From contig RXJR01000004.1 in NCBI GenBank assembly GCA_003963305.1, positions 308,562-372,561 on the forward strand: 64,000 bases of DNA, in the 5' to 3' direction. How positions within the stretch are numbered: the first letter of the stretch is position 1; each line of letters begins with the position of its first letter. Source of the DNA: Candidatus Melainabacteria bacterium (GTDB lineage: Bacteria; Cyanobacteriota; Vampirovibrionia; Obscuribacterales; Obscuribacteraceae). Positions 1-49,117 of this stretch are shown in pieces. The notes under the pieces were generated by a model. The model was not told the DNA's origin, did not search any database, and saw only the letters and a list, made by a program, of their open reading frames with translations. Position numbers and translations under genes: made by a program.

Positions 1-1089
1 AACGAGAGCCTGTCTATCACGTGCAGCCAGGTCAGTCTTTTTATCGACTTCAGATTGCATCTTCATCAGCTCAGCTTCCATCTGAATTTGCTGAACAGGT
101 GATTGAGATCCGCGCACTTCGTTGCAGATGCCTTGCAATTTAGTCAGGGCAGCTTTTGTTCTTTCCAGATCACTCAAATTGATCTTGTAGTCTTTGTAGG
201 CTCGAACAACTTTGTCTGCAGTACCGCGAACCATGTTGTAGAGAATGATCGCTTCTGTCTGACTCAAACGAGCTTTCTTGTCATTGGCACTTTGCACGCC
301 ATTCAGAGCTTGCAGCATCATGCTGGCGCCCATGTTGGCGCCCATTTGCGCGCCCATATTCGGTGCCATCATGGTCATCATGCTCATGCCACCAAATACG
401 GCGGTACTGAGCATCTTCATCATGACGTTAGCGGTCTTACCACTGTTCTGATTCGGCATCAGCTTCTGAACGACAAATTGAATGTCTTGCGAACGAGCGA
501 GGGTTGAATCCCACAAATCAGCGAGCTCAAGTTTTTCTGCGTTGAATTTAACGTCTAATTGATTTTGTTCTTCTTCAGGACTCGGCATCAACTCGATAGG
601 AACTGCATTCACATCTCGAGCCATTTTCGAGATGTTGTGTTCATTTTTCAAAACCTTGTCACTGGTTGTGTTCTTAACACTCTTGGGTGCAAGTATCGCG
701 GCTTGGTCGACCGGTCCACTGACAGCCGTTCTGTCGACTTTAACAGTGGCTTTGAAAACGCCTGCTTCTGATGGTCCAAGTGATGTATCCGATTTCTGCC
801 CTTCATCTAAAGTGACCGGAGTCAAATCGACCGGTTTGGCTGCAACCGGAGCAGCAGGGGTGCTGTTGTCCAGCTGTGGATCTTGTTTTTGCAAGTCGTT
901 AGTTTGAGGACCAGCACCAGGGCTGAGCTTCGAATAGACTTCATACTGCAAAGTGGCTCTTTTTTGTGAACTCTTCGACAAACTGATAGCCAGACAAGGG
1001 CTAACGGTCTGACCGATCAGTGAAATCCCCAGCGCTACAAACGCGAGTTTCTTGTTTATAGATACTTTGGATTGCGATGCCATATCCAT
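1..1089 (-). CDS. Exported protein of unknown function, 3' end cut by window edge
   Basis: An open minus-strand frame of 363 codons runs from an ATG at 1089 off the left edge with no stop. A GGAAGG ribosome site lies about 10 bases upstream. Residues 13-35 form a hydrophobic signal segment (KKLAFVALGISLIG..) ending near CLA, so export is likely. A low-complexity Pro/Ala/Lys linker follows, then a Met/Gly-rich hydrophobic stretch (roughly residues 235-265, with MGAQMGANMGA) and a charged helical region at the edge. I recognise no family. The Met/Gly stretch could be a membrane-inserting hairpin (inference). The frame is convincing because of its length, ribosome site and signal segment. Confidence 0.72.
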   Translation of the reverse strand, partial: MDMASQSKVSINKKLAFVALGISLIGQTVSPCLAISLSKSSQKRATLQYEVYSKLSPGAGPQTNDLQKQDPQLDNSTPAAPVAAKPVDLTPVTLDEGQKSDTSLGPSEAGVFKATVKVDRTAVSGPVDQAAILAPKSVKNTTSDKVLKNEHNISKMARDVNAVPIELMPSPEEEQNQLDVKFNAEKLELADLWDSTLARSQDIQFVVQKLMPNQNSGKTANVMMKMLSTAVFGGMSMMTMMAPNMGAQMGANMGASMMLQALNGVQSANDKKARLSQTEAIILYNMVRGTADKVVRAYKDYKINLSDLERTKAALTKLQGICNEVRGSQSPVQQIQMEAELMKMQSEVDKKTDLAARDRQALV

Positions 1090-1245: not shown

Positions 1246-3192
1246 TTAGCGTTTTCCTGCCGTCACGGCAAAGATTATTAACGCAATTATGACAACCAAT
1301 TGCATCAATTGGTCTGCAAGAAACGGCATGCTTTGCATCAGTGTCGGACCCATGATGCTCATGTACCAGAGCTTCGCGAGAACAGCGATGACACACGGGA
1401 TGATTAAAATCATCGCCGGCTTAGGCTGAGCAGCAGGAGAGTTTCGATAATTATTTATCGGCTGTTCATCGATGTCATCAGCTCCGCCGCCTAACAGTCC
1501 AGATCTTGACGACCGCCGCAAAGCAGGGGCAGGTGAACTATCTTTTATTTTTGATGCCACTTCAGGTGGTGTCGATGGTGCTGTCGGCGCCGGTGGCACG
1601 ACTTTTGGCTCAGCAGCACGACTCTCAGCGAATCCACGATCTCGCCACATATCACCGGGTGGCTGCGGGTCAGGAAAACCTCTGTCACGAAATTCCGGTT
1701 GAGCCGGCGCAGACGTATCTGCAAAAGATTTAGTGTCGGGGAATGATGCTGCCGGTGGTGGCGCAGCCGGAGCAGGACCGGGCGTTATCTTTGATGGCGC
1801 CGGTGGTGCCGCTGGTTCTGGCGCGATGTGCTTGGAACGCGCTGCCAGTAGAGGTGAACGCAACACATTGGGATCGTCGATCTCTTCGTAATATGGTTCG
1901 TCGTAATCAGATTCAAAGCTCTGTCCGCCTGCTCCATCCATTATCGGTGAGTGCAAACGCGGTCTGCCGCCTGCAGGGCGAGACGGTGAAGGCGCAGGAG
2001 CCGGCTCATCGTCCAGATCGGCTCCTCCCAATAGAGGTGAGCGCAAATGACTTCGTCCGGGAAATTTGCCGGAACTGGTCTGGTCAGTCGATTCCGGGGC
2101 TTTATCGGCTGGATCTTTATCCCTGGCCGATGCCGGTCGACGCACGTGCGGAAATGGTGTCTTTCCAGGCACGGGCGGCAAATCATCATCTTCCTCGTCG
2201 CCCTCGTAATCATCCACACCACCGAGAAGCGGCGAACGAAGATGTGCACTACCGGTGCGTGGAGGCAAGCCCTTTGGTGGTTTCACAGGCTTAGACTGCG
2301 GAACGAAGTCGTCTTCGGCAGCACCGAGAAGCGGTGAACGAAGACCACCCTTGCTCTTGCCCGGTGAAGGGGCTGGCGGATCATCGGCAGGCAAACCTCT
2401 GAGACTACCCTTGCCGCGCTGAGGCAGATCTGGATCATCTTCCCCTCTGAGCAACGGTGACCGCAAACCGCCCGACCGAGGCTTAGGGGCTGGTGGATCG
2501 ACTTCACTGTCGTCTTCGCCAAGAAGCGGCGACCGCAAGCCTTTTGGCTTACTCATGCCGCCAAAACCACCGGCAGGTTTAGGCGCCTGCGGTCTGGTCG
2601 ACGGTTCGTCAGGTCCATCAAATATAGGTGAATGCAACTTGGGGCGGGCAGGCAGAGGTGGACTCTGCGAGACTTCCGGTTCTGGAGGGAAAGTCTTCGA
2701 TTGAGTCTCTTGAGACGCATTAGAGGAAGGAGTTTCTGTATCGAAAGATTGACCTGCCGGCTGCGCGACATTATTGAAAGCAGACGTGTTCGGAGGGTTG
2801 AAGGCCGGCGTGTTCGGGGGATTGAACGCCGGTGTATTAGGCGGGTTGAATGCCGGAGTCTGGGGCGGATTGAAAGAAGCTTGCTGCGGTGCTATGCCTG
2901 GAGACTGAGGTGGGGCACCAGTTGAGGGCGGTCCGCCAAACGCAGAATTATCGAATTGATTGGCTGATGTCCCGAAATTACTGGCTTGCTGGTAGTCCTG
3001 AACCGCCTGTGGTTGCGGCGACGGTGCTTTATCAGCAGGAGGAAAGCTCGGGAAGACAGGCTCTGGAGCCGCAGCTGCGTTAGGGTTTTGAAAAGAGTTC
3101 TGGGGCGATGCCGGTGCAAACCGTTGTCCACATTCAGAACAGAAATGAGCTTGCTCCTCGTTCATCACGTGGCAAATAGGACATTCAATCAC
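1246..3192 (-). CDS. Zinc-ribbon, LRSPLL-repeat protein with C-terminal membrane anchor
   Basis: A 648-residue protein. Residues 4-21 form a zinc ribbon (CPIC..CSEC). A disordered Pro/Ala/Gln region follows, with four copies of an AFNPPNTP octapeptide (about residues 108-140). Next comes a run of up to ten spaced motifs: six exact LRSPLL, two LHSPI and two degenerate copies, each followed by a Gly/Asp/Glu-rich acidic patch. Two hydrophobic helices close the protein (about 595-645), so it is probably tail-anchored with the ribbon and repeats in the cytosol. I know no family with this repeat. Each motif carries Ser-Pro after Arg, so phosphorylation by a Ser/Thr kinase is conceivable (inference). 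It is divergent from the gene at 3490. Function unknown. Confidence 0.85.
   Translation of the reverse strand: MIECPICHVMNEEQAHFCSECGQRFAPASPQNSFQNPNAAAAPEPVFPSFPPADKAPSPQPQAVQDYQQASNFGTSANQFDNSAFGGPPSTGAPPQSPGIAPQQASFNPPQTPAFNPPNTPAFNPPNTPAFNPPNTSAFNNVAQPAGQSFDTETPSSNASQETQSKTFPPEPEVSQSPPLPARPKLHSPIFDGPDEPSTRPQAPKPAGGFGGMSKPKGLRSPLLGEDDSEVDPPAPKPRSGGLRSPLLRGEDDPDLPQRGKGSLRGLPADDPPAPSPGKSKGGLRSPLLGAAEDDFVPQSKPVKPPKGLPPRTGSAHLRSPLLGGVDDYEGDEEDDDLPPVPGKTPFPHVRRPASARDKDPADKAPESTDQTSSGKFPGRSHLRSPLLGGADLDDEPAPAPSPSRPAGGRPRLHSPIMDGAGGQSFESDYDEPYYEEIDDPNVLRSPLLAARSKHIAPEPAAPPAPSKITPGPAPAAPPPAASFPDTKSFADTSAPAQPEFRDRGFPDPQPPGDMWRDRGFAESRAAEPKVVPPAPTAPSTPPEVASKIKDSSPAPALRRSSRSGLLGGGADDIDEQPINNYRNSPAAQPKPAMILIIPCVIAVLAKLWYMSIMGPTLMQSMPFLADQLMQLVVIIALIIFAVTAGKR
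2773..2868 (-). repeat. Four tandem 24-bp units encoding AFNPPNTP
   Basis: Four 24-base units at 2773, 2797, 2821 and 2845 differ by a few bases each, and a decayed fifth start follows. They keep frame and encode the octapeptide repeat of the zinc-ribbon protein. Confidence 0.8.
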
Positions 3193-3489: not shown

Positions 3490-4605
3490 ATGACCCGTGG
3501 CTTTCTTCCTATAGCACTGAGCGTTCTCCTGTCAGCAGGCTCAATGCCGCTGGCATTTGCAGCAAGCGACTCTCAGCTCAACTTTAAGATTTATAGTCCC
3601 GACGGTGCATCAACCGCTCCCGCGCAGCCTGACGAAGTCCCTGCCGCAGCCACTCCGTCCGCCACAGCCGCTCCTGCAGCTGCCGACCCAGCCTCGACCG
3701 ACACTGCTACCGCTGATAAAAGTAACGATTCAGCAAGTGTAACGGAATTAAAACCAGAACTTACAAAAGAAGAGCCTGTCATGTCGGCTCCTGCAACTAC
3801 AGCTGCCACTGACTCAGACGCTGCCGCTGCAGCAACTTCGGCCGCAAGTAGCGCTACTGATACATCTACCACTACTACAACAGATACCGCTTCAACATCT
3901 GCAGCTGATACCACAAGTGGTGACAAAACAGAGACTTCCGCTACTGATAGCGAAACGAAAACAGCCTCAGCATCAAGCACTAAATTGCAAGGTTACGTTA
4001 GAGAAGTGCCGGCTCAGACCAAGATTCCAATCATCATGGATACTGCAGTCGACAGCGATACCAGCCAGGAAGGAGACGAGTTCTCAGCAAGAACTGCTGA
4101 AGACTTAACCATTGACGGTGCCATTGTCGTACCGGCAGGCTCGATCATCAAGGGCAGAATCGCCCAACTCAACTCGCCCAAGCATTTAAACCGCAGCGGC
4201 TCGGTGGCACTGAAGTTCGACACAGTCACAACCCCTGACAATCGCCAGATTCCGTTGGTAGCCAACCTGGTCGCACACGGTGGTGTTGTGCACGCCAAAC
4301 GCGGACTCAAAGATTACGCAATCGATTCCGGAACAGTTGCTGCTCCGTTGGTGATTGGTACCCTGATCGGCTTGGTCGCGGGCAACAGTAACAACAACAA
4401 TAACAACAATAACAACAACAATAACGGTAACAATGGCAACAACAACGGTCTGTCCTCAGGGGCAGCAATGGCACTCGGCGCCGGTATCGGTGCAGCAGTT
4501 GGTATAGCCATTCTATGCGCCAAGAAAGGCAAAAAGGTCGACGTGCGTCCCGGGGACGAGCTCAAAATCGAGCTGGCCGAAGCCCTGCGCATGCCGATGA
4601 TGTAA
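3490..4605 (+). CDS. Exported protein with Thr/Ala-rich linker and poly-Asn tract
   Basis: A 371-residue protein. Residues 1-25 are a signal peptide ending at AFA. Residues 40-160 are Ala/Thr/Ser/Asp-rich and probably disordered. Residues 165-285 form a folded domain containing GDEFSARTAEDL and IVVPAGSIIKGRI. This 'IPaGs..kG' pattern resembles the beta-barrel core of TrbI/VirB10-like proteins, which I offer only as a resemblance. A glycine-rich hydrophobic segment follows (VIGTLIGLVAG), then an Asn tract of about 20 residues broken by Gly, then a second hydrophobic segment (GAAMALGAGIGAAVGIAIL). GGAG lies 8 bases before the ATG. Envelope location is likely, role unknown. Confidence 0.85.
   Translation: MTRGFLPIALSVLLSAGSMPLAFAASDSQLNFKIYSPDGASTAPAQPDEVPAAATPSATAAPAAADPASTDTATADKSNDSASVTELKPELTKEEPVMSAPATTAATDSDAAAAATSAASSATDTSTTTTTDTASTSAADTTSGDKTETSATDSETKTASASSTKLQGYVREVPAQTKIPIIMDTAVDSDTSQEGDEFSARTAEDLTIDGAIVVPAGSIIKGRIAQLNSPKHLNRSGSVALKFDTVTTPDNRQIPLVANLVAHGGVVHAKRGLKDYAIDSGTVAAPLVIGTLIGLVAGNSNNNNNNNNNNNNGNNGNNNGLSSGAAMALGAGIGAAVGIAILCAKKGKKVDVRPGDELKIELAEALRMPMM
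4384..4447 (+). repeat. AAC/AAT trinucleotide tract
   Basis: About twenty AAY codons interrupted by AGT, GGT and GGC encode the poly-Asn stretch of the protein at 3490. Changes by whole units would keep frame and change the linker length between two hydrophobic segments. Confidence 0.85.
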
Positions 4606-5054: not shown

Positions 5055-6686
5055 ATGACTAGCACAGCAAAACCTCCTGGTTTTCACCAATCATCTAAAG
5101 ACCCGAATATGGCAGCCATGCTGTCGATCATCCCCGGATTTGGTCAGCTTTACAACGGCGAGCAACGCAAGGGAATGCTCTTCCTCGCGGTCGCCGCAAT
5201 CAACTTTATAGTCTTCTTGCTCCTGCTTTTCACCGATCCTATTCTCAGAGGACTGGTCGAATTCGGCATAAGCAATCATATGAAGCCGAACCGCGAGCTG
5301 GTCACGTCGATTTCCCAGATTCACATGGGAAGTCCAGCCTCTTTAGTCGTTCTTGGACTCTTTCTCTCATTTGTAGCTTTCGCTATTCGCGACGCTTACG
5401 ACCATGCCGCCCTGCTTCAGCGCCGACGCATATACCCGGAATATGTTATGGCCATGTCCGAAGCCACCAGCGGAAGCTATCTCCTTCACGTAGCTTTCAT
5501 GGCAAGTTTCTTCGTGCTGGCATTCTTCTTCCTGGTGCCGCCGCCGCCCAAACAACAGATCACAGACATCGAATTCATTCAGAATCAACCTCCGGTTGAG
5601 CACAAAGTCAAATCACAAAGACACGCTCAAAAGAACTCTGAAAATGCCGGTAAGCATGACGCTACAAAACCAGTAACGGCGCCGTCTCCTGCTCCTAAGG
5701 CTCCAAGCAAAGCAGCACCAGCGGCCAAACCGACTCCAGAGAAGGCAGCACCGACGCCCAAGCCGACTCCCACGCCGTCGCCAAAACCGACGCCAACGCC
5801 TGTAGCGCGTCCAACTCCAACACCTCCTTCTCCGCATCCGTCGCCGTCTCCAACTCCTCATCCGAGCCCGACACCTTCACCGTCGCCGACGCCGACACCA
5901 TCTCCAACGCCAAAGCCGATGGCAATGCCAACGCCAACGCCTTTCGCACATCCTTCTGCAAGCCCATCACCAACTCCTTCTCCATCGCCTTCGCCGTTAG
6001 CTTTTGCACACGGTGGCGGTCCTTCACTGTCGCCAGTGCCAAAGATTGGAGCAGGTCCAGGACACGGCTCCACAGCCGCACCAGCACCAGCTCCTATGTC
6101 CACCGGTTCAGGCGCAGCTGGGGGTGGACCACCTTCGCCTTCTCCTATTGCCGGCGGTGGTGCTCCTAGAGTAGGCGGCGGTTCCGGACCTACAGCGGCA
6201 CCAGCTCCCAGCCGAGTCGGCAGAAGCGGTGGCGGCGGTTCAGCCGGCGGCGGTCCAATTGCAGTTGCGCCAAGCGTTCCACGACCGACTGGTGGTGGCG
6301 GTGGCGAAGGTGTCAAGGGTAATCCTGATGCCAACAACAATCCAAACGGCAGACCATCTGTGGCAGCACAAGCCGATGTGGACTTCGGACCATACATGGC
6401 TGACCTGCAAAGAAGAATCAAACGCGCATGGTTCCCTCCAAAAGGTAATGAATCCAAGAGAGTGGTGGTTATCTTCAAAGTTCACAGAGGCGGAGAACTC
6501 TCCAACTTGAGACTTGATAAATCATCTGGCGTAGCGATTGCCGACCAGGCAGCCCTCAAAGCTGTTGAAAACGCGGCACCGTTCCGACCATTACCTGCGG
6601 GCGCCAGCGATGACGTAGACATTCAATTCACGTTCGATTACAACGTATTCAGCGGCGGTGGACACGGCACCTTCCGTTCGTTCTGA
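5055..6686 (+). CDS. TonB-family energy transducer fused to a multi-helix N-terminal membrane domain
   Basis: A 543-residue protein. The N-terminal part has a PGFGQLYNGE motif (residues 27-36), typical of small TM2-like membrane proteins, and three hydrophobic helices at about 41-60, 95-112 and 143-161. A long Pro/Thr/Ser linker (about 170-310, TPTPSP repeats) and a Gly/Pro-rich region (310-435) follow. Residues 445-540 are a TonB C-terminal domain: YMADLQRRIKRAW, VVVIFKVHRGGELSNL, AVENAAPFRPLPAG. TonB normally carries the proton-motive-force signal of ExbB/ExbD to outer-membrane receptors and usually has a single N-terminal helix. Here the anchor is a larger domain. exbB and exbD follow directly, which supports the role. 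No receptor gene lies in the window. Confidence 0.9.
   Translation: MTSTAKPPGFHQSSKDPNMAAMLSIIPGFGQLYNGEQRKGMLFLAVAAINFIVFLLLLFTDPILRGLVEFGISNHMKPNRELVTSISQIHMGSPASLVVLGLFLSFVAFAIRDAYDHAALLQRRRIYPEYVMAMSEATSGSYLLHVAFMASFFVLAFFFLVPPPPKQQITDIEFIQNQPPVEHKVKSQRHAQKNSENAGKHDATKPVTAPSPAPKAPSKAAPAAKPTPEKAAPTPKPTPTPSPKPTPTPVARPTPTPPSPHPSPSPTPHPSPTPSPSPTPTPSPTPKPMAMPTPTPFAHPSASPSPTPSPSPSPLAFAHGGGPSLSPVPKIGAGPGHGSTAAPAPAPMSTGSGAAGGGPPSPSPIAGGGAPRVGGGSGPTAAPAPSRVGRSGGGGSAGGGPIAVAPSVPRPTGGGGGEGVKGNPDANNNPNGRPSVAAQADVDFGPYMADLQRRIKRAWFPPKGNESKRVVVIFKVHRGGELSNLRLDKSSGVAIADQAALKAVENAAPFRPLPAGASDDVDIQFTFDYNVFSGGGHGTFRSF
5730..5995 (+). repeat. Degenerate Pro-Thr/Pro-Ser hexanucleotide repeats
   Basis: Imperfect CCNACN/CCNTCN units encode the periplasm-spanning linker of the TonB protein. 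Synonymous variation among units indicates selection on the protein rather than recent slippage. Confidence 0.7.
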
Positions 6687-6721
6687 TAAACTCATTTCGT
6701 TCGCAGCACTCAGGAGAGAAA

Positions 6722-7357
6722 ATGGAAAGCAAATTTTTCACTTACTTTATTCAGTTCATGATGACTGACTGGTTCGCTTCCATTCCCATTACCCTGTGCT
6801 CTGTAGCGACTGCGGCTGTGATGATTGAGCGATATCTGTACTATCAGAAAAATCGCCGTGACGTAACTCAATTCATCCACCAGCTGCAACGCGAGTTAGA
6901 GAGCCAACAATTGCAGAAAGCGCAACAGACATGCAGCCGCCTCGGTGGTGTTGTCGGTGAAGTCGCCGAAGAAGGCGTGCGCTTGATGGCAGAACAAAAA
7001 GAAGACTTCTCGAAAGCGTTCGATATCACAGTCGGTCTGGTGACAAGAAAGCTGGAACGTCACTTAGTAGTACTGGGAACGATCGGCGCTACCTGCCCGT
7101 TCATCGGCTTGTTCGGAACAGTGGTCGGGGTTATTTTCACACTGGACCAGTTAGGCGTCGCCGGTGGTGGCACTCCAGTTGTTGTAACCGGTGTTGCGAA
7201 AGCTCTAATTGCGACAGGATACGGTCTGGTTGTCTCAATTCTCGCCGTTATCTTCAACAACCTCTACACCAACACTGTAAAGGGCTTCAACGATGACTTC
7301 CTGCTCCTCAAGCTGCTCTTCCTGAGCTTCGTTGGTACTGAAGGTCACGCTCACTAA
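6722..7357 (+). CDS. exbB: ExbB/TolQ/MotA-family proton channel subunit
   Basis: A 211-residue protein of the MotA/TolQ/ExbB family. Residues 17-37 form the first membrane helix, followed by a charged cytosolic domain (about 40-115). Two further helices lie at about 120-145 and 155-180, with the conserved GLFGTVVGVIFTL and KALIATGYGLVVSILAV segments lining the proton path. It forms the inner-membrane motor with ExbD and drives the TonB protein upstream. It starts 35 bases after tonB, with GGAG about 6 bases before the ATG, and precedes exbD by 32 bases, so the three are one operon. TolQ is the alternative name. The fused TonB neighbour favours ExbB. Confidence 0.92.
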   Translation: MESKFFTYFIQFMMTDWFASIPITLCSVATAAVMIERYLYYQKNRRDVTQFIHQLQRELESQQLQKAQQTCSRLGGVVGEVAEEGVRLMAEQKEDFSKAFDITVGLVTRKLERHLVVLGTIGATCPFIGLFGTVVGVIFTLDQLGVAGGGTPVVVTGVAKALIATGYGLVVSILAVIFNNLYTNTVKGFNDDFLLLKLLFLSFVGTEGHAH

Positions 7358-7389
7358 AATTCGACTCTCGTCGAGGAGGGTGAACTGCT

Positions 7390-7818
7390 ATGTCGATGGG
7401 TACTAATGCCGGTGAAGTCTTCACCGAAATCAACGTCACGCCGTTGACAGACGTGTTCCTCGTGCTGCTCGTGATCATGATCTTGATCGCACCTCTTATT
7501 GACAAGTCCGATTTGAAGATCAAGCCGCCTGAAACCAAGAATGCTAAGAAAGTTGATGAGAGTAAAGGAATTTTTATAGACATCGACAAACAGGGGCAGA
7601 TTGCCATCAACGGCAACTTTGTCAACAGCACCGATCCAACAGTGATCGGCCAGCGCATCAAGGAAATCATCGTCAAACTCGGCAACAAAGAAGTGCCCTG
7701 CACAGTCAACGCCGACGGAGATTCAAAAGAAAAGGAAGTAGTGGCAGTAATGCAAGCGGCTGCTGAAGCCGGCATAAAACGCATGAGAGTAGCCACGATT
7801 CAGGCGAGCAGTTACTAA
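7390..7818 (+). CDS. exbD: ExbD/TolR-family biopolymer transport protein
   Basis: A 142-residue protein with one N-terminal membrane helix (about 18-38, DVFLVLLVIMILIAPLI) and a periplasmic domain, the standard ExbD/TolR design. The Asp in VTPLTDVFLVLL is the conserved proton-carrying residue of the family. The periplasmic part ends in IKRMRVATIQ, close to the family's C-terminal strand. A GAGGAGG ribosome site lies just ahead of the ATG. It is the last gene of the tonB-exbB-exbD operon. aroE begins 33 bases later and may be co-transcribed. Confidence 0.92.
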   Translation: MSMGTNAGEVFTEINVTPLTDVFLVLLVIMILIAPLIDKSDLKIKPPETKNAKKVDESKGIFIDIDKQGQIAINGNFVNSTDPTVIGQRIKEIIVKLGNKEVPCTVNADGDSKEKEVVAVMQAAAEAGIKRMRVATIQASSY

Positions 7819-23504: not shown

Positions 23505-25313
23505 TCAAGGGACGCTGAAATGACCTTCGCGATACGCGCCCTGGAAAGACTTTAGCGGTTCGTGAAGGTGCTCTTCTACAATTTTCTTCATGCTCTTGTA
23601 GTTGCTTTGCGATTCTATGTTTGTGGAACCAGGCACCAGAGCAGCTCCCATCGTGAAGAATTCAAATGGGTTGTTCTTTCTTGGCGAATCAAGTTCCTGG
23701 CCGTTCTCTCCCAAAAATTGATACCAGGATTTTTCAACAGAGACGCCGGCAGGCACGCCTGTCACCGTAATTGGTGACTTATAGCTGCTCACAAGAACTC
23801 GGTCAATTTTGACGGCGGGGTTCAGCCGCATGATTTTCCAGTTTGTAGGCATATAGGAGCTAAAAACGAGAGTGATCGGCTTATCTGACGGTCCAACCTC
23901 GACTTCTACGTTTCCAGGAAGATTGAAGTTATCCGCTTCCTGACCTTTACCAGCGTAGACCGCGACTACCTGGACATTCGTCTTTCCAGAATTCTCAGGG
24001 TAGCTGACTGTACAGTGCTGGGAAAGTTGCTTGTCGGTGGCAGCTTCAATAGACTTTTGAATGGAGGCAGTGTCAACGTAAGGCTGCGAATTCTGAATGA
24101 ATGTAGGCACCGGCACCGGTGCAGGTTGGGCACGATGCAACAGCATTTGAGAGGCACCCAAAAGAACACAAAAGACCACGGCAAACACACCGGCACCTAC
24201 CAGGAAATTCTTGTTTATGCCCGGGCGCTCGCGATTGGTGGGGCGGTTGGGATTTATAGGTCCCTCGGATTCGACTGGGCGGTTGGGATTTATAGGTACC
24301 TCGGATTCGCCTGGGCGCTCGGGCTTTTCCCAGTCACGCACGCCGGCGCTGGACGACCTGGCATCTTCGTGGCGAGGATTCAATGTTGTTACGGCAATGT
24401 TGTTGGAAGCGTTATATCCGCCACCTCTATCGATAACTTCGAGTGCTTGAGATAACTCCTCCATAGACTGAAAACGTGCCTGAGGCTGTTTTTGCATGCA
24501 TCGTGCAATCACTGCTTCCAGGTTCTTCAGCAAAGCAGTCATCTGCACTCCCGTGACAGAGCTGATTAAGGGCACATCTTCAGTGAGATGCAGATTGAAT
24601 GTTTCCAGTGCGCTTCCACCCATGAATGGAGGCTCACCACAAACTGTTTCGAACATCAAGCATCCGAGCGAATAGATGTCGGAACGAGCATCAACAGCTC
24701 TACCGCTGCACTGCTCAGGACTCATATAAATAGGACTGCCAAATATTTCTCCCGTCATCGTCAGACCCTGCCCGCCGGCGCCTGGACTTACTAACTTAGC
24801 GATTCCAAGATCGACTAGCTTGACAAAATCTTTACCGCGATGGGAAAGAACGACAACGTTATTGGGCTTCAAGTCGCGATGAATGATTCCCTGCTCGTGA
24901 GCATAGGCCAGGGCGTCAGCCATTTGAATGAACATGCGCACTGCGCGCCAATCGGGCAGCACATGCTGCTGCTTCAAAATGTCACCCAGAGCGGGTCCGT
25001 CCAGAAATTCCATGACAAAATAAGGTGTGCCACTATGCGTAGTGCCAGCATCAAGCACACTGATAAGATGCGGATGCGACAACATACTCATAGCTTTGAT
25101 TTCTTGCTGAAAGCGAGCTGCAGCAAAGTTATCCAGAAACATGTGCAGCGCCTTCACGGCCACGGGCTTGTTCAGCGACAGATTGGTCGCTTTGAAAACG
25201 GTACCCATACCACCCTGCCCAAGGACTTCGACAATTTGATAACGGTTGTCCAGGACCTCACCGATAGTGATGCCTGTTTTTGCAAATATTTGCCTGGCCT
25301 CAAATTCGTCCAC
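23505..25313 (-). CDS. Transmembrane Ser/Thr protein kinase with unknown extracytoplasmic domain
   Basis: A 602-residue kinase with GTG start (GGGGAA upstream). Kinase domain at 25-295: glycine loop LGQGGMGTVF, VAVK with Lys54, catalytic HRDLKPNN (145-152), Mg loop DLG (168-170, Leu in place of Phe), and GSPIYMSPEQ. A linker with two copies of a 12-residue Pro/Asn repeat leads to one membrane helix (370-392). The outer domain (about 395-602) contains no PASTA repeat; it includes VEVGPSDKPITLVFSSYMPTNWKIM. It presumably senses an envelope signal and phosphorylates cytosolic proteins. Similar in design to the kinase at 47645. Confidence 0.93.
   Translation of the reverse strand: MDEFEARQIFAKTGITIGEVLDNRYQIVEVLGQGGMGTVFKATNLSLNKPVAVKALHMFLDNFAAARFQQEIKAMSMLSHPHLISVLDAGTTHSGTPYFVMEFLDGPALGDILKQQHVLPDWRAVRMFIQMADALAYAHEQGIIHRDLKPNNVVVLSHRGKDFVKLVDLGIAKLVSPGAGGQGLTMTGEIFGSPIYMSPEQCSGRAVDARSDIYSLGCLMFETVCGEPPFMGGSALETFNLHLTEDVPLISSVTGVQMTALLKNLEAVIARCMQKQPQARFQSMEELSQALEVIDRGGGYNASNNIAVTTLNPRHEDARSSSAGVRDWEKPERPGESEVPINPNRPVESEGPINPNRPTNRERPGINKNFLVGAGVFAVVFCVLLGASQMLLHRAQPAPVPVPTFIQNSQPYVDTASIQKSIEAATDKQLSQHCTVSYPENSGKTNVQVVAVYAGKGQEADNFNLPGNVEVEVGPSDKPITLVFSSYMPTNWKIMRLNPAVKIDRVLVSSYKSPITVTGVPAGVSVEKSWYQFLGENGQELDSPRKNNPFEFFTMGAALVPGSTNIESQSNYKSMKKIVEEHLHEPLKSFQGAYREGHFSVP
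24242..24313 (-). repeat. 36-bp direct repeat in kinase linker
   Basis: Two 36-base units (24242-24277 and 24278-24313) differ at only two positions and encode the (V/G)PINPNRP-type repeat just before the membrane helix. Recent in-frame duplication. Confidence 0.85.
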
Positions 25314-29553: not shown

Positions 29554-30065
29554 GAGTTCTTTGTTTCAAACAGATCAGTTTTAAGCGAGCTGTCCGAGCC
29601 GATGTAAACCAGGTCTTTCTCTTGCGACTATAGCACAGGTAAACAAGAGGTCAAACGACTAATTTGCAACAGGCGCCAAGTTCCTGCCGATTTTGACCGA
29701 CAGTTGTGTAGCCCGAAGGTCCGCTGTTATCAGCAGCTTGTTACGATACAAATTAAAGTTTTGAAAGTGAATATGCATATAGGTCATTAGCGCTATAATA
29801 AAGACACTTGAGGGCGTTCTAGCTCAAGATTCTTTTTCAAAACCGTATCTTGTTTCGCTGATCTCCGGAAGACCTGCCGATTGGGTCCTACCCGAGATGA
29901 ACACTCAAAGACTTTCATCGGCTGCGGCTTTCCGACTCGCTGATTTGCTGGCGAACGTAAGTCATCAACCACTTTCGTGTCGTCATATGTTCTGAAAGCC
30001 GGTAGGTGAAACCTATAAGCATTTTCTCTTGTGTACTTTTCGGAGTCGGGACAATAGTTAAATCG
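29554..30065. other. Intergenic region and probable long leader of the radical SAM gene
   Basis: A TATAAT box at 29794-29799 is the best promoter candidate; no matching -35 is found at normal spacing. From it the transcript would have a leader of about 200 to 260 bases. A 32-codon frame (29897-29995) has no ribosome site. An in-frame GTG at 30006 is an alternative start for the downstream gene. Confidence 0.4.
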
Positions 30066-32972
30066 ATGGTGGGTCGACAGGATCCACAAGTCAAGACAAC
30101 ATCAACAGCGAAAGTCAACGACTCGGAATTTTCCAGCCTTCTGACTGAAGAGTTGCTCGAACAAGTGAACCGACCCGGTCAGTATCTTGGAAACGAGTGG
30201 GGCGCGGCGCGCAAAGATTTCGAACAGGCAACGGTCAGACTGGCGTTGTCTTTTCCAGACCTTTACGAACTGGGAATGTCCAATTTCGGGTTGAAAATTC
30301 TCTACCAGATTGTCAATGCCACCGAAGGTCTGCTGGTTGATCGCAGTTATGCGCCAGGCTCAGACCTGGAGAAAATTTTACGCGACAGAAAAATACCGTT
30401 GTGGGGTTGGGAATCGCGACGACCGCTGAGAGATTTCGAGCTGGTCGGCTTTTCGCTGCAGTACGAGCTTTGCTACACGAACGTCTTGAATATGTTGGAT
30501 CTCGCCCAGGTGCCAGTCCTGGCTGCAGATCGCACCGACATTTTCCCGCTTATCTTCGGCGGCGGACCCTCAGCGGTAAATCCGGAGCCAATGGCGCTAT
30601 TCATGGACTTCTTCATCATTGGTGACGGCGAAGCCGCGATACCAAATACGATGAAAATTGTACGAGAGTTCAAAGAACGTTATCCCGATGCTCAAGGTGC
30701 ATGCTATCGCCAGAGGCTGCTGTCCGAGCTGGCTACCCGTGTGGAAGGTCTCTACGTTCCGTCTCTTTATCAATACAACAACGACGGCAAAGCACCCAAG
30801 CCAGTCGATCTGAAAACATTACAACCGAGTCAAAACTGCAGCGTCGATCACGAACACTGTTCCACTGCAGATATTGCCACGCCGCTGCCAGAGCGCATTC
30901 TGCGCCAGACAATCCCACTATCGAACGACAATCAGCCGACAGCATCGCTCGTCCCATACCTGTCACTCGTGCACGACCGAGAAGTGCTGGAAGTGCGCAG
31001 AGGTTGCGACCGTGGCTGCCGTTTCTGCCAGCCTGGTTACACCTTTCTTCCAGTCAGAGAGAGATCGACTGAAGACTTGCTGAAGCTCTCCAGTCAGGCA
31101 CTGGCCAACAGCGGTCACCAGGAATATTCAATGTTGTCGCTTTGCGTGAGCGACTACACCAGTCTGCACGAGTCGGTGCGGGCCCTCAATCAAGAGCACG
31201 CAGCCAAACGATCCTCGCTGTCATTTCCAAGTCAGCGAGCCGATCGCATGAATCTCGAACTGGCCGAAGAGCTGAAAGCGGTGCGTAAAAGTGGTATCAC
31301 CCTTGCGCCTGAAGCAGGTTCAGAGCGGCTCAGAGCGATCATAAACAAAGGGCTGTCGCATCAACAAATCATCTCTGCAATAGAAGCCGCTTATCAGTCG
31401 GGCTGGACTTCTGTGAAACTGTACTTCATGTGCGGACTGCCTCTCGAAGAAGACTCCGATCTGGCCGGCATCGTAGATATTCTCAAAGAAGCAACTATGC
31501 ACTGTCGCGCCATCAAAAAGACAGATCCCGTAAAATACAAAAAAGATATCGACTTCACCTGCACGATTTCAAACTTCGTGCCCAAGCCGTTTACTCCGTT
31601 TCAGTGGTTCGGTCAAGTGACACCGGAAGAGACAGAGCGCCGGCACAAAGTGTTGCGGCAGAAACTCAGGGAATCAGGGCTGAGAAATGTGCAGCTCAAT
31701 TTAACCGACACCACAATAAGCTTGCTCGAGTCCGTAATCTCTCGCGGCGATCGAAACGTCAGCAAGATGATTTACGAAGCATGGAAAGACGGCGCCGTTT
31801 TCGATGCCTGGGACGAACATTTCAAACCGCAGATCTGGCACAATGTCGCCGCCCGCATGAACACTACATTGATTGATATGGCCTGTACCGACAGACCGGT
31901 TGGCTCCGAACAGCCATGGGAAGCAATCCACATCGGGCTGAACAACTGGTGGCTCGTAAAGGAATGGGAAAAAGCCGTAGCGGCAGTCGAAACCGCTCCG
32001 TGCACCGAGAACCTTTGCCATGCTTGCGGCGTCTGCACCGAACTCGATACCACGCATCAGCTCTCTGCACCTAAACCGGAAGTGATGAAGAAAAATCCTT
32101 TCGTCAAAGAGCTGGCAGTAAAAGTCGAAGAATCAAACGGTGACAGTCATCCGTCGCTGTTCTTCACAAAACCACCGGAGGCACCGGTCAACGAAGCACT
32201 ACAGAGAATTAGATTCAAATTCACCAAGAAAGGTGATTTGCGATTTATTTCTCACCTCGATTTGCAGCATCTTCTCGCCCGCGCATCGCGTCGGGCAGTT
32301 TTGAATGTTGCCTATACAAAGGGATTCAATCCTGCTCCTCGACTGAATCTTGCAGCACCACTGGCGCTGTTCCAGGAATCAGAATGTGAAGTGGGCGAAG
32401 TAGATCTCTCAGTTGTCGTCTCAACCGACGACTTCATCAAGCGCTTCAATGCGCAGTTACCTCCTGAAATACAGATGCTCGAAGCCAGAGAAATTCCGGT
32501 TTCGAACATGGCCCTGGCTTCCATTCTCAGCTCTGCCACATACAGAGTTCGCCTGGTTCGATTTGCGGATGCCAACGCAGAACGAACTGAGCTGGAGGCA
32601 TATCGAGCCGCTTTGAACGAACTGATTCAGAGTCTGCTCGCCAAAGAAGAAGTCTTCTTACAGTCTCCTGATGCCGATCAAGCGGGTGGTTCATCCTCCC
32701 AAAAGCTCGCGCAGAAAGGATCAACTGAAAATGCAGCGCCCAACGTTGCAAAAAGAAAAAACATTCGCCCAGGAATCCTTTCCATCGAGCTGGTTGATCC
32801 CTCAACTGGCACTCTCGAACTGGAACTTGCTCACGGACCAGCAATGCATGTGAAGCCGGACCATGTTTTGAAGTGCTTGCAACCAGACGATAAGCCTTTC
32901 CCCGAAGCTGTCTGGCGGATTACCCGCACCCAGTTGAAGGGACGGGGCGAAACTCCTTTGTTCAACACCTAA
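30066..32972 (+). CDS. Radical SAM protein (TIGR03960-type) fused to DUF2344 domain
   Basis: A 968-residue protein from ATG 30066 (GTG 30006 would add 20). The N-terminal B12-binding-like part has RPGQYLGNEWGA and ELVGFSLQYELCYTNVLNMLDLA. The radical SAM core has the 4Fe-4S motif C314, C318, C321 (RGCDRGCRFCQPG), then SFPSQRADRM, LAPEAGSERLR and KLYFMCGLPLEED. A Cys cluster follows (CTENLCHACGVC), a second possible metal site. The last 280 residues match DUF2344 (RIRFKFTKKGDLRFISHLDL, ASRRAVLNVAYTKGFNPAPRL). In many bacteria these are two genes next to RNase G; here they are one, followed by an RNase E/G. Substrate unknown, probably RNA-linked (inference). Confidence 0.93.
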   Translation: MVGRQDPQVKTTSTAKVNDSEFSSLLTEELLEQVNRPGQYLGNEWGAARKDFEQATVRLALSFPDLYELGMSNFGLKILYQIVNATEGLLVDRSYAPGSDLEKILRDRKIPLWGWESRRPLRDFELVGFSLQYELCYTNVLNMLDLAQVPVLAADRTDIFPLIFGGGPSAVNPEPMALFMDFFIIGDGEAAIPNTMKIVREFKERYPDAQGACYRQRLLSELATRVEGLYVPSLYQYNNDGKAPKPVDLKTLQPSQNCSVDHEHCSTADIATPLPERILRQTIPLSNDNQPTASLVPYLSLVHDREVLEVRRGCDRGCRFCQPGYTFLPVRERSTEDLLKLSSQALANSGHQEYSMLSLCVSDYTSLHESVRALNQEHAAKRSSLSFPSQRADRMNLELAEELKAVRKSGITLAPEAGSERLRAIINKGLSHQQIISAIEAAYQSGWTSVKLYFMCGLPLEEDSDLAGIVDILKEATMHCRAIKKTDPVKYKKDIDFTCTISNFVPKPFTPFQWFGQVTPEETERRHKVLRQKLRESGLRNVQLNLTDTTISLLESVISRGDRNVSKMIYEAWKDGAVFDAWDEHFKPQIWHNVAARMNTTLIDMACTDRPVGSEQPWEAIHIGLNNWWLVKEWEKAVAAVETAPCTENLCHACGVCTELDTTHQLSAPKPEVMKKNPFVKELAVKVEESNGDSHPSLFFTKPPEAPVNEALQRIRFKFTKKGDLRFISHLDLQHLLARASRRAVLNVAYTKGFNPAPRLNLAAPLALFQESECEVGEVDLSVVVSTDDFIKRFNAQLPPEIQMLEAREIPVSNMALASILSSATYRVRLVRFADANAERTELEAYRAALNELIQSLLAKEEVFLQSPDADQAGGSSSQKLAQKGSTENAAPNVAKRKNIRPGILSIELVDPSTGTLELELAHGPAMHVKPDHVLKCLQPDDKPFPEAVWRITRTQLKGRGETPLFNT

Positions 32973-47644: not shown

Positions 47645-48928
47645 TTATCGCCTTGAACTGCCGCGCTCCTTCGGTTCCGAAAGTGGCGCCAGCCCGGGCG
47701 GACGCTGAATTTCTGAGGAGCGCTGCAGTTGGTAGGTCTGCATACCCTGCTGGGTTTTGTTTATAGTGTCACGATAGCGCATCCAGCCATAGCCGACGGC
47801 AAAGAAAAGCACCGCTATTAGTGTCACGGTGAGGAGCATGTTCTTAATTTCAGAGCGCTGTTCCTGCTTGATTGCCGTCGCTCGAAGAGCGCGCGCGTTT
47901 TTAGGCTGCTGCACTGCTGCAATTCCGGAATAAGACCTTTCCATCTTCAATGGTCGTGAAACAGACTTTTCTATATCATCACGCAGTTCAGCCATGGTCT
48001 GATAGCGAGTGTCCGGTTCCTTGGCAAGAGCACGCAAAACGATGGCATCGACTTTAGCGGGCAAGTTCAAGTCTGGTCTAACCTCCGACAACGGACGCGG
48101 CGGTGAACTGATTTGCTGCGTCATCGTGTCGACGTAGTTCCTGCCGAGAAACGGAACTTGCCCTGTGAGAGCTTCGTACATAACCACACCAATCGAATAG
48201 ATGTCAGATCTGGCATCAAGAGGTGCACCCATACACTGTTCAGGACTCATGTAGATAGGACTGCCCCAGACTTCGCCCAATCGCGTCAGACGTTGAGCTT
48301 CTTCTTCGAAACGAGCAATACCGAAATCGACGACCTTGACGAAGTCGTTCTGCCCATTGAACTTGCACAGCATGATATTGCCCGGTTTGAGGTCTCGGTG
48401 TATAACGCCGCAGCGATGGGCGTGATCGACCGCGCCGCAAACTTGAGAGAAAATGTCGCGGAACTTTTCTACGGCAAGCGGACCCTGATATTTCAATACA
48501 TCAGCCAGGTTAACCCCAGTCAGATAATCCATGACGAAATAAGGCTGCCCGCGCACAGTGGTGCCGTAATCGTGAACCTGCACGATGCGCGGATGATTGA
48601 GTTTGCTTAAAAGTTCAGCTTCTCGCTGAAATCGCTTGACGATCAACTCGTCGTTCAGACCCTGCGTACGCAATGTCTTAAGGGCGACAATGCGCGGGTT
48701 TTTACCCATTGCTTTGGCTTTATAGACGACGCTCATGCCGCCGTGACCAAGCACTGACAAAACATAATAACGATTGGCAACGCGTGCGCCGACCAACAAA
48801 TCTTTCGCATCAGGGGGAATGAAAACGCGATATCGAGGCAAACGACCACTTGCCATTGGCACAGGACGCACGGCCGGTGTTACCAATACTGGTCTAGCAA
48901 GAAGCCGCTTTAGTTGCCGGGTTTTCAT
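47645..48928 (-). CDS. Ser/Thr protein kinase with C-terminal membrane helix
   Basis: A 427-residue kinase from ATG 48928 (GAAGG 6 bases upstream; TTG 48952 is an alternative). Residues 55-325 are a Hanks-type kinase: LGHGGMSVVYK, VALK with Lys84, HRDLKPGN (177-184), DFG (201-203), GSPIYMSPEQ and DARSDIYSIG. A juxtamembrane stretch leads to one helix (364-383); only 44 residues follow it. So, unlike the kinase at 23505, it has almost no outer domain. The basic N-terminus (MKTRQLKRLLARP) is unusual. Likely signals from the membrane to cytosolic targets. Confidence 0.93.
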   Translation of the reverse strand: MKTRQLKRLLARPVLVTPAVRPVPMASGRLPRYRVFIPPDAKDLLVGARVANRYYVLSVLGHGGMSVVYKAKAMGKNPRIVALKTLRTQGLNDELIVKRFQREAELLSKLNHPRIVQVHDYGTTVRGQPYFVMDYLTGVNLADVLKYQGPLAVEKFRDIFSQVCGAVDHAHRCGVIHRDLKPGNIMLCKFNGQNDFVKVVDFGIARFEEEAQRLTRLGEVWGSPIYMSPEQCMGAPLDARSDIYSIGVVMYEALTGQVPFLGRNYVDTMTQQISSPPRPLSEVRPDLNLPAKVDAIVLRALAKEPDTRYQTMAELRDDIEKSVSRPLKMERSYSGIAAVQQPKNARALRATAIKQEQRSEIKNMLLTVTLIAVLFFAVGYGWMRYRDTINKTQQGMQTYQLQRSSEIQRPPGLAPLSEPKERGSSRR

Positions 48929-49117
48929 CCTTAACCTTCGCTGTCTAATCAAATATTACTTCAAAATATGCAATTGACCAGGCCAAATTAAGCAACTGGT
49001 ACTGCGGGAGACTGACCTCCTTGATTCAGGCGTCGCACCGTTGCACCATATTTGATACCAACAAGCGACCACACAGCGATAAACCCAGATCAGTTTTTCA
49101 CGCCGTTCTTGAATACT

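Follow-up and report, generated by a model that had tools for sequence, protein, structure and literature searches.

A conserved L-[R/H]-S-P-[L/I/M]-L motif array in a predicted membrane-hairpin protein of Obscuribacterales

Why would a bacterial protein repeat the same six residues many times over, and what could read them? The question is raised by one gene in a 64,000-nucleotide stretch of contig RXJR01000004.1 (referred to as the window), whose product carries the hexapeptide LRSPLL again and again. Such long arrays, in which a single short linear motif is repeated with exact conservation, have a eukaryote-like design and, to our knowledge, have rarely been documented in bacteria. The original prediction, made from the DNA letters of the window, described a tail-anchored zinc-ribbon protein in which selection maintains a multivalent binding or phosphorylation motif. 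In this study, the array was compared across orthologues, and its possible modes of action were weighed.

Organization of the motif-array gene and its product

The motif-array gene is an open reading frame (1246-3192, minus strand) with a GTG start; it encodes 648 amino acids (aa) and is the sole family member in its 7.48-Mb host genome. The features of the gene and its two flanking genes are as follows.

1246..3192, minus strand: motif-array protein, 648 aa (Cys4 ribbon, array, P-rich stretch, and predicted membrane hairpin)
3130..3183, minus strand: N-terminal Cys4 zinc ribbon, aa 4-21 (CPIC...FCSEC)
2774..2874, minus strand: 24-bp tandem repeat encoding PAFNPPNT, not conserved in other genera
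2620..2637, minus strand: motif copy 1, LHSPIF, aa 186-191, of the first-copy type K-L-H-S-P
2521..2538, minus strand: motif copy 2, LRSPLL, aa 219-224
2449..2466, minus strand: motif copy 3, LRSPLL, aa 243-248
2389..2403, minus strand: degenerate copy LRGLP, aa 264-268 (SLRGLP at aa 263-268)
2326..2343, minus strand: motif copy 4, LRSPLL, aa 284-289
2224..2241, minus strand: motif copy 5, LRSPLL, aa 318-323
2137..2154, minus strand: FPH-R block, single copy, aa 347-352 (FPHVRR), kept in most orthologues
2029..2046, minus strand: motif copy 6, LRSPLL, aa 383-388
1939..1956, minus strand: motif copy 7, LHSPIM, aa 413-418
1846..1863, minus strand: motif copy 8, LRSPLL, aa 444-449, the last copy, of the nearly fixed type DPNVLRSPLLAAR
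1492..1521, minus strand: C-terminal degenerate copy LRRSSRSGLL, aa 558-567
1354..1413, minus strand: predicted membrane helix 1, aa 594-613, with the conserved Lys607
1252..1329, minus strand: predicted membrane helix 2, aa 622-647, with the acidic Asp627 near its start
1..1089, minus strand: exported helical protein, conserved downstream neighbour, 420 aa in full and running past the window start
3490..4605, plus strand: TrbI-like exported protein, conserved divergent neighbour

The original count of six LRSPLL copies (starting at aa 219, 243, 284, 318, 383, and 444), two LHSPI copies (LHSPIF and LHSPIM, starting at aa 186 and 413, respectively), and two decayed copies was exact. SLRGLP is probably a lost copy, since palsa_1080 (L005/L034) has an intact LRSPLL at the aligned place. 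The position of LRRSSRSGLL matches that of C-terminal degenerate copies in relatives (KLRSRLL, KLKSKLL, and GLRGSKLL). The linkers are acidic, as had been claimed: the 14 residues that follow a motif have a mean net charge of -4.3, and the 10-residue stretch up to and including motif position 2 averages +2.6. The FPHR block inside the array (2137-2154, minus strand) probably represents another contact motif, distinct from the repeated one.

Apart from proteins cut by a contig end or a broken frame, every orthologue read is built in the same way: a Cys4 ribbon, then the array, the P-rich stretch, and the hairpin. The window protein carries every family trait: the Cys4 ribbon, several L[RH]SP[LIM]L motifs, a last copy of the DPNxLRSPLL form, and the two-helix hairpin. 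In the alignment columns, the four ribbon Cys residues are invariant in all 28 orthologues that reach the N-terminus. Nearly all orthologues that reach the start of the motif gene have a GTG start (exceptions: one TTG, one ATG, and one unassigned), unlike most neighbouring exported and TrbI-like genes, which start with ATG.

An AlphaFold2 model was computed from a three-sequence alignment, and its disorder prediction is of low confidence; pLDDT was below 50 through the array, and helices were placed at aa 594-613 and 622-647. The array is thus predicted to be largely disordered, and the membrane part is predicted to be a two-helix hairpin rather than the classical single tail anchor first proposed. 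Helix 1 carries a Lys in 24 of 25 orthologues and an Arg in the remaining one, and helix 2 has an acidic residue near its start; the two may form an intramembrane pair. Three features suggest an N-in/C-in topology: no signal peptide is apparent, the protein bears a Cys4 ribbon, and its C-terminus is positively charged.

Conservation, selection, and turnover of the motif

The motif was present in every orthologue examined, at 4-10 copies in each of 30 orthologues. Seven strict matches were counted in the 648-aa protein, against a mean of 0.001 in its shuffles, and 192 in the 30 orthologues, against 0.02; strict matches so far above the shuffled means exclude chance and bear out the claim that the key residues are conserved. 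The 204 copies scored in these orthologues give the consensus [K/R/G]-L-[R/H]-S-P-[L/I/M]-[L/F]-G-G-acidic. Position 1 is L (100%); position 2 is R (64%) or H (31%), with K, N, or Y in the remainder, so that the Arg-Ser-Pro originally ascribed to each copy was too strict. Position 3 is S (100%) and position 4 is P (96%), the latter being replaced by S, K, R, N, or A in nine of the 204 copies. Position 5 is L (78%), I (13%), or M (8%), and position 6 is L (95%) or F (4%). The motif is preceded by G, K, or R and followed by G (63%), G (53%), and an acidic run.

Since the search pattern required L at position 1 and S or T at position 3, the two values of 100% mean that S is never replaced by T and that the rest of the motif follows, not that these positions are independently conserved. 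The alignment columns, which are free of the pattern condition, show the same invariance at both positions. A single Thr copy (LRTPVL, at the cut end of L027) lies beyond the 204, having been left out by the tail filter. The hydrophobic positions (L1, L/I/M5, and L/F6) are held about as tightly as the Ser.

The codons of the motif differ between copies, as originally noted. Between the window gene and two congeners, synonymous differences were found at 73-92% of the motif synonymous sites, and the amino-acid identity of the hexapeptide was 94-98%, compared with 63-78% for the linkers. Synonymous sites are saturated and the hexapeptide is nevertheless 94-98% identical, which indicates strong purifying selection on the peptide; the early reading that the peptide is conserved while the DNA drifts holds up. 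On these comparisons, selection clearly keeps the repeated hexapeptide L-[R/H]-S-P-L-L. Recent tandem duplication as the source of the identical window copies was rejected, because synonymous sites are saturated and a search for tandem DNA repeats over the motifs of the window gene found none.

The copies are not equivalent. Across orthologues, the first is usually K/R-L-H-S-P. The last, in almost every case, reads DPN-V/A/I-LRSPLL and is flanked by acidic residues; its L444, R445, P447, and L449 are invariant in 30 of 30 orthologues. The internal copies vary in number and resemble one another more within genomes (0.58) than between them (0.45; shuffled maximum, 0.48); in L007 and L024, they are fresh tandem units of 87 and 78 bp, respectively. 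As read from these alignments, repeats are born and lost among the internal copies, new ones arising by tandem duplication, while the peptide is maintained. Spacing is irregular (median, 32 residues; range, 13-173).

In a DNA-pattern search of the host genome, matches outside the array protein were about as frequent as with the reversed-pattern control, and the idea that the motif is common to other proteins of the genome was rejected. The sole other L-R-S-P-x-x-G match was in an AddA/UvrD-type helicase.

Family distribution and gene neighbourhood

Profile searches of related genomes had been suggested in the original prediction. A profile of 22 orthologues detected the family in 46 of 53 Obscuribacterales genomes, including all 22 with at least 90% completeness and at most 5% contamination; the nearest named relatives are the metagenome-assembled genomes SZAS-4 and palsa_1080. 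Among 194 genomes sampled across the phylum, matches outside the order were confined to the N-terminal ribbon region, and homologues in other orders or classes were rejected as zinc-ribbon matches only. The protein had no NCBIfam match and no Pfam match above curated cut-offs. Its sub-threshold Pfam matches were to zinc ribbons: the C-x2-C-x10-C-x2-C pattern at the N-terminus resembles Zn_ribbon_3 and DZR, but the scores fall below the curated cut-offs (17.3 versus 27 bits for Zn_ribbon_3), and the ribbon makes up about 4% of the protein. A PDB sequence search with the consensus unit found nothing similar, a PDB search with the family profile gave weak matches, mostly on the ribbon region, and a search for LRSPLL in a library of papers found none that mentions it. 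By these searches, the motif-array family is undescribed in any named family or paper found, which agrees with the initial statement that no family with this motif was known.

In all 21 loci compared, the window included, the motif gene lies between the divergent TrbI-like gene and the same-strand gene of the exported helical protein. In 19 of the 21, including loci of the second family of the order, the next gene detected is sppA, commonly followed by genes for a small membrane protein and MiaA. The gap between the motif gene and the exported-protein gene is 58-307 bp, against 2-89 bp between the latter and sppA; hence, the motif gene may be transcribed separately. Other orders have distant relatives of the exported helical protein, in some cases encoded by a pair of neighbouring genes, and a motif gene was found in none of the six such loci read (six genomes). 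On this distribution, the exported helical neighbour is older than the motif gene.

The exported helical neighbour (1-1089, minus strand; L033, 8122-9348) contains a conserved LWxSTLxRSPDIQFVVQKL stretch. A fold search with it returned no significant match. Comparison with TolC-family proteins (CusC, OprM, and NodT) gave high probabilities with poor E-values on a low-confidence model, and a TolC-family identity was not relied on. On the other side, the TrbI-like protein has a poly-Asn tract (4390-4445, plus strand), whose length and composition vary among relatives (N, S, or T runs). Next to its gene are TonB-like, ExbB, and ExbD genes (5055-7818, plus strand). They occur there in the large family of the order only, often with two TonB-like genes, and the second family is without them. 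The TonB_C match belongs to the separate gene at 5055-6686 and not to the motif-array protein. Further along the window, a predicted tRNA-Ser (TGA; 30452-30531, plus strand) lies inside the 5' part of a 988-aa radical-SAM open reading frame (30006-32972); the likely explanation is a later true start of the radical-SAM gene or else a questionable tRNA prediction.

A docking scaffold and the alternatives

The reading that we favour, and to which we give an even chance, is that the protein is an inner-membrane-anchored, cytoplasm-facing, multivalent docking scaffold for a putative partner. It is favoured because of the flexible spacing, the exactness of the hydrophobic, Ser, and Pro positions, the charge blocks, and the nearly fixed last copy. 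A repeated short motif and peptide-level selection were found, and the chain is predicted, with low confidence, to be disordered. Irregularly spaced motifs in a predicted-disordered chain are what one would expect of docking sites that act independently, and not of a folded repeat domain. In the mechanism that we infer, the two C-terminal membrane helices would hold a region of roughly 590 residues, largely disordered, at the cytoplasmic side of the inner membrane, where each [basic]-L-[R/H]-S-P-[L/I/M]-L-G-G-[acidic] unit would be a short linear motif that docks one and the same soluble cytoplasmic partner. Several copies would provide avidity, so that the partner would be clustered at the membrane beside SppA and the exported helical and TrbI-like proteins. 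The Cys4 ribbon would be a contact point of its own, as would the FPHR block and the last, nearly fixed copy.

Known proteins offer partial parallels. The carboxysome protein CsoS2 and the pyrenoid protein EPYC1 are disordered linkers whose repeated short motifs dock a partner many times. The working mode proposed here, repeated motifs in a disordered chain, would be analogous, but the motif is unrelated, the array protein has a predicted membrane hairpin, and its scaffold role is a proposal. GltJ of the Myxococcus gliding machinery is an inner-membrane protein whose long cytoplasmic part is of low complexity and begins with a zinc ribbon at the N-terminus, an arrangement that the array protein would share; however, Pfam searches found neither GYF nor TonB_C in the array protein, and we know of no LRSPLL array in GltJ.

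Among the alternatives, a multi-site phosphorylation array was the second half of the original proposal, and we judge it unlikely: one or more Hanks-type kinases would phosphorylate the motif Ser, and the number of phosphorylated copies would adjust either reader binding or scaffold charge. A Ser in 204 of 204 scored copies, a Pro at +1 in 96%, and a basic residue at -1 are consistent with it. The kinome is also large: kinase-domain (Pkinase) matches number about 115 in the host genome (G000) and 14-88 in eight relatives within the order (G004, G007, G010, G020, G031, and G036-G038), against 0 and 1 in two genomes that belong to the class but to other orders; seven FHA matches were found in G000. 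The window does contain the two Ser/Thr kinases first noticed (23505-25313 and within 47645-48952), but about 115 matches in 7.48 Mb correspond to about one match per 64-65 kb. Two per window is near the genome-wide density and unremarkable, and kinase proximity was rejected as evidence for phosphorylation. FHA domains read phospho-Thr, whereas the Ser/Thr exchange expected at an acceptor position read in this way was not seen (204 Ser, one Thr). Furthermore, +1 is not Pro in nine of the 204 copies, and motif number showed no correlation by eye with kinase number in eight genomes (G036, 10 copies and 25 matches; G031, six copies and 88 matches). The hydrophobic positions are conserved about like the Ser, and this pattern points no less to a docking peptide than to a phospho-site. 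Of the original proposal, the selected repeated peptide, multivalent by construction, stands; its phosphorylation is unsupported.

Self-association is, in our view, quite unlikely: the motifs would act as stickers and, with the opposite charge blocks, form a membrane-attached condensate or cluster that needs no dedicated receptor. The alternating blocks around each motif (+2.6 and -4.3), the predicted disorder, and the variable copy number would suit such a protein. Sticker models tolerate substitutions, however, whereas the 204 copies show next to no variation at L, S, P, and the last L, and the special conservation of the last copy also argues against it.

Regulation or anchoring of the SppA protease by way of the membrane hairpin, while the array would sense a partner in the cytoplasm, is improbable. 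SppI (YteJ) of Bacillus subtilis, a membrane protein with two or three helices, binds and inhibits SppA (PMC7568657), and the array protein likewise has a predicted helical hairpin and is encoded close to sppA, which follows in 19 of 21 loci, second family included; the conserved Lys/acid pair of the hairpin is suggestive of helix-helix contacts. SppI, however, belongs to the RDD family and as described has neither a motif array nor a zinc ribbon, while the array protein gave no RDD match in Pfam at E-values up to 1. The exported-protein gene stands between the motif gene and sppA, the catalysis of SppA would take place across the membrane from the array in the suggested topology, and the motif itself would be left unexplained.

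Neutral low-complexity expansion, in which a functionless motif has copies that are alike merely through recent duplication, has some near-identical DNA repeats in orthologues and the freely drifting adjoining P/N/F-rich repeats in its favour, but is very nearly negligible given the held peptide, saturated synonymous sites, and lack of DNA repeats over the motifs in the window gene and congeners, and conservation in 46 genomes of two families.

The docking-scaffold reading may extend to a wider proposal, which we offer tentatively as possible: an undescribed, order-wide motif-receptor system, in which a membrane hub with 4-10 copies of L-[R/H]-S-P-[L/I/M]-L and a dedicated putative cytoplasmic receptor would have originated in the Obscuribacterales ancestor, next to envelope genes of greater age, possibly gated by the expanded Ser/Thr kinome. 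The motif can be read from comparative genomics alone, with about 200 instances, and the binding partner could therefore be fished with a single peptide. Obscuribacterales is a large, little-studied, non-photosynthetic cyanobacterial lineage. Apparently present in every well-sequenced genome of the order searched and in no sampled outsider, the motif-array protein is hence a candidate signature and core cell-envelope component of Obscuribacterales.
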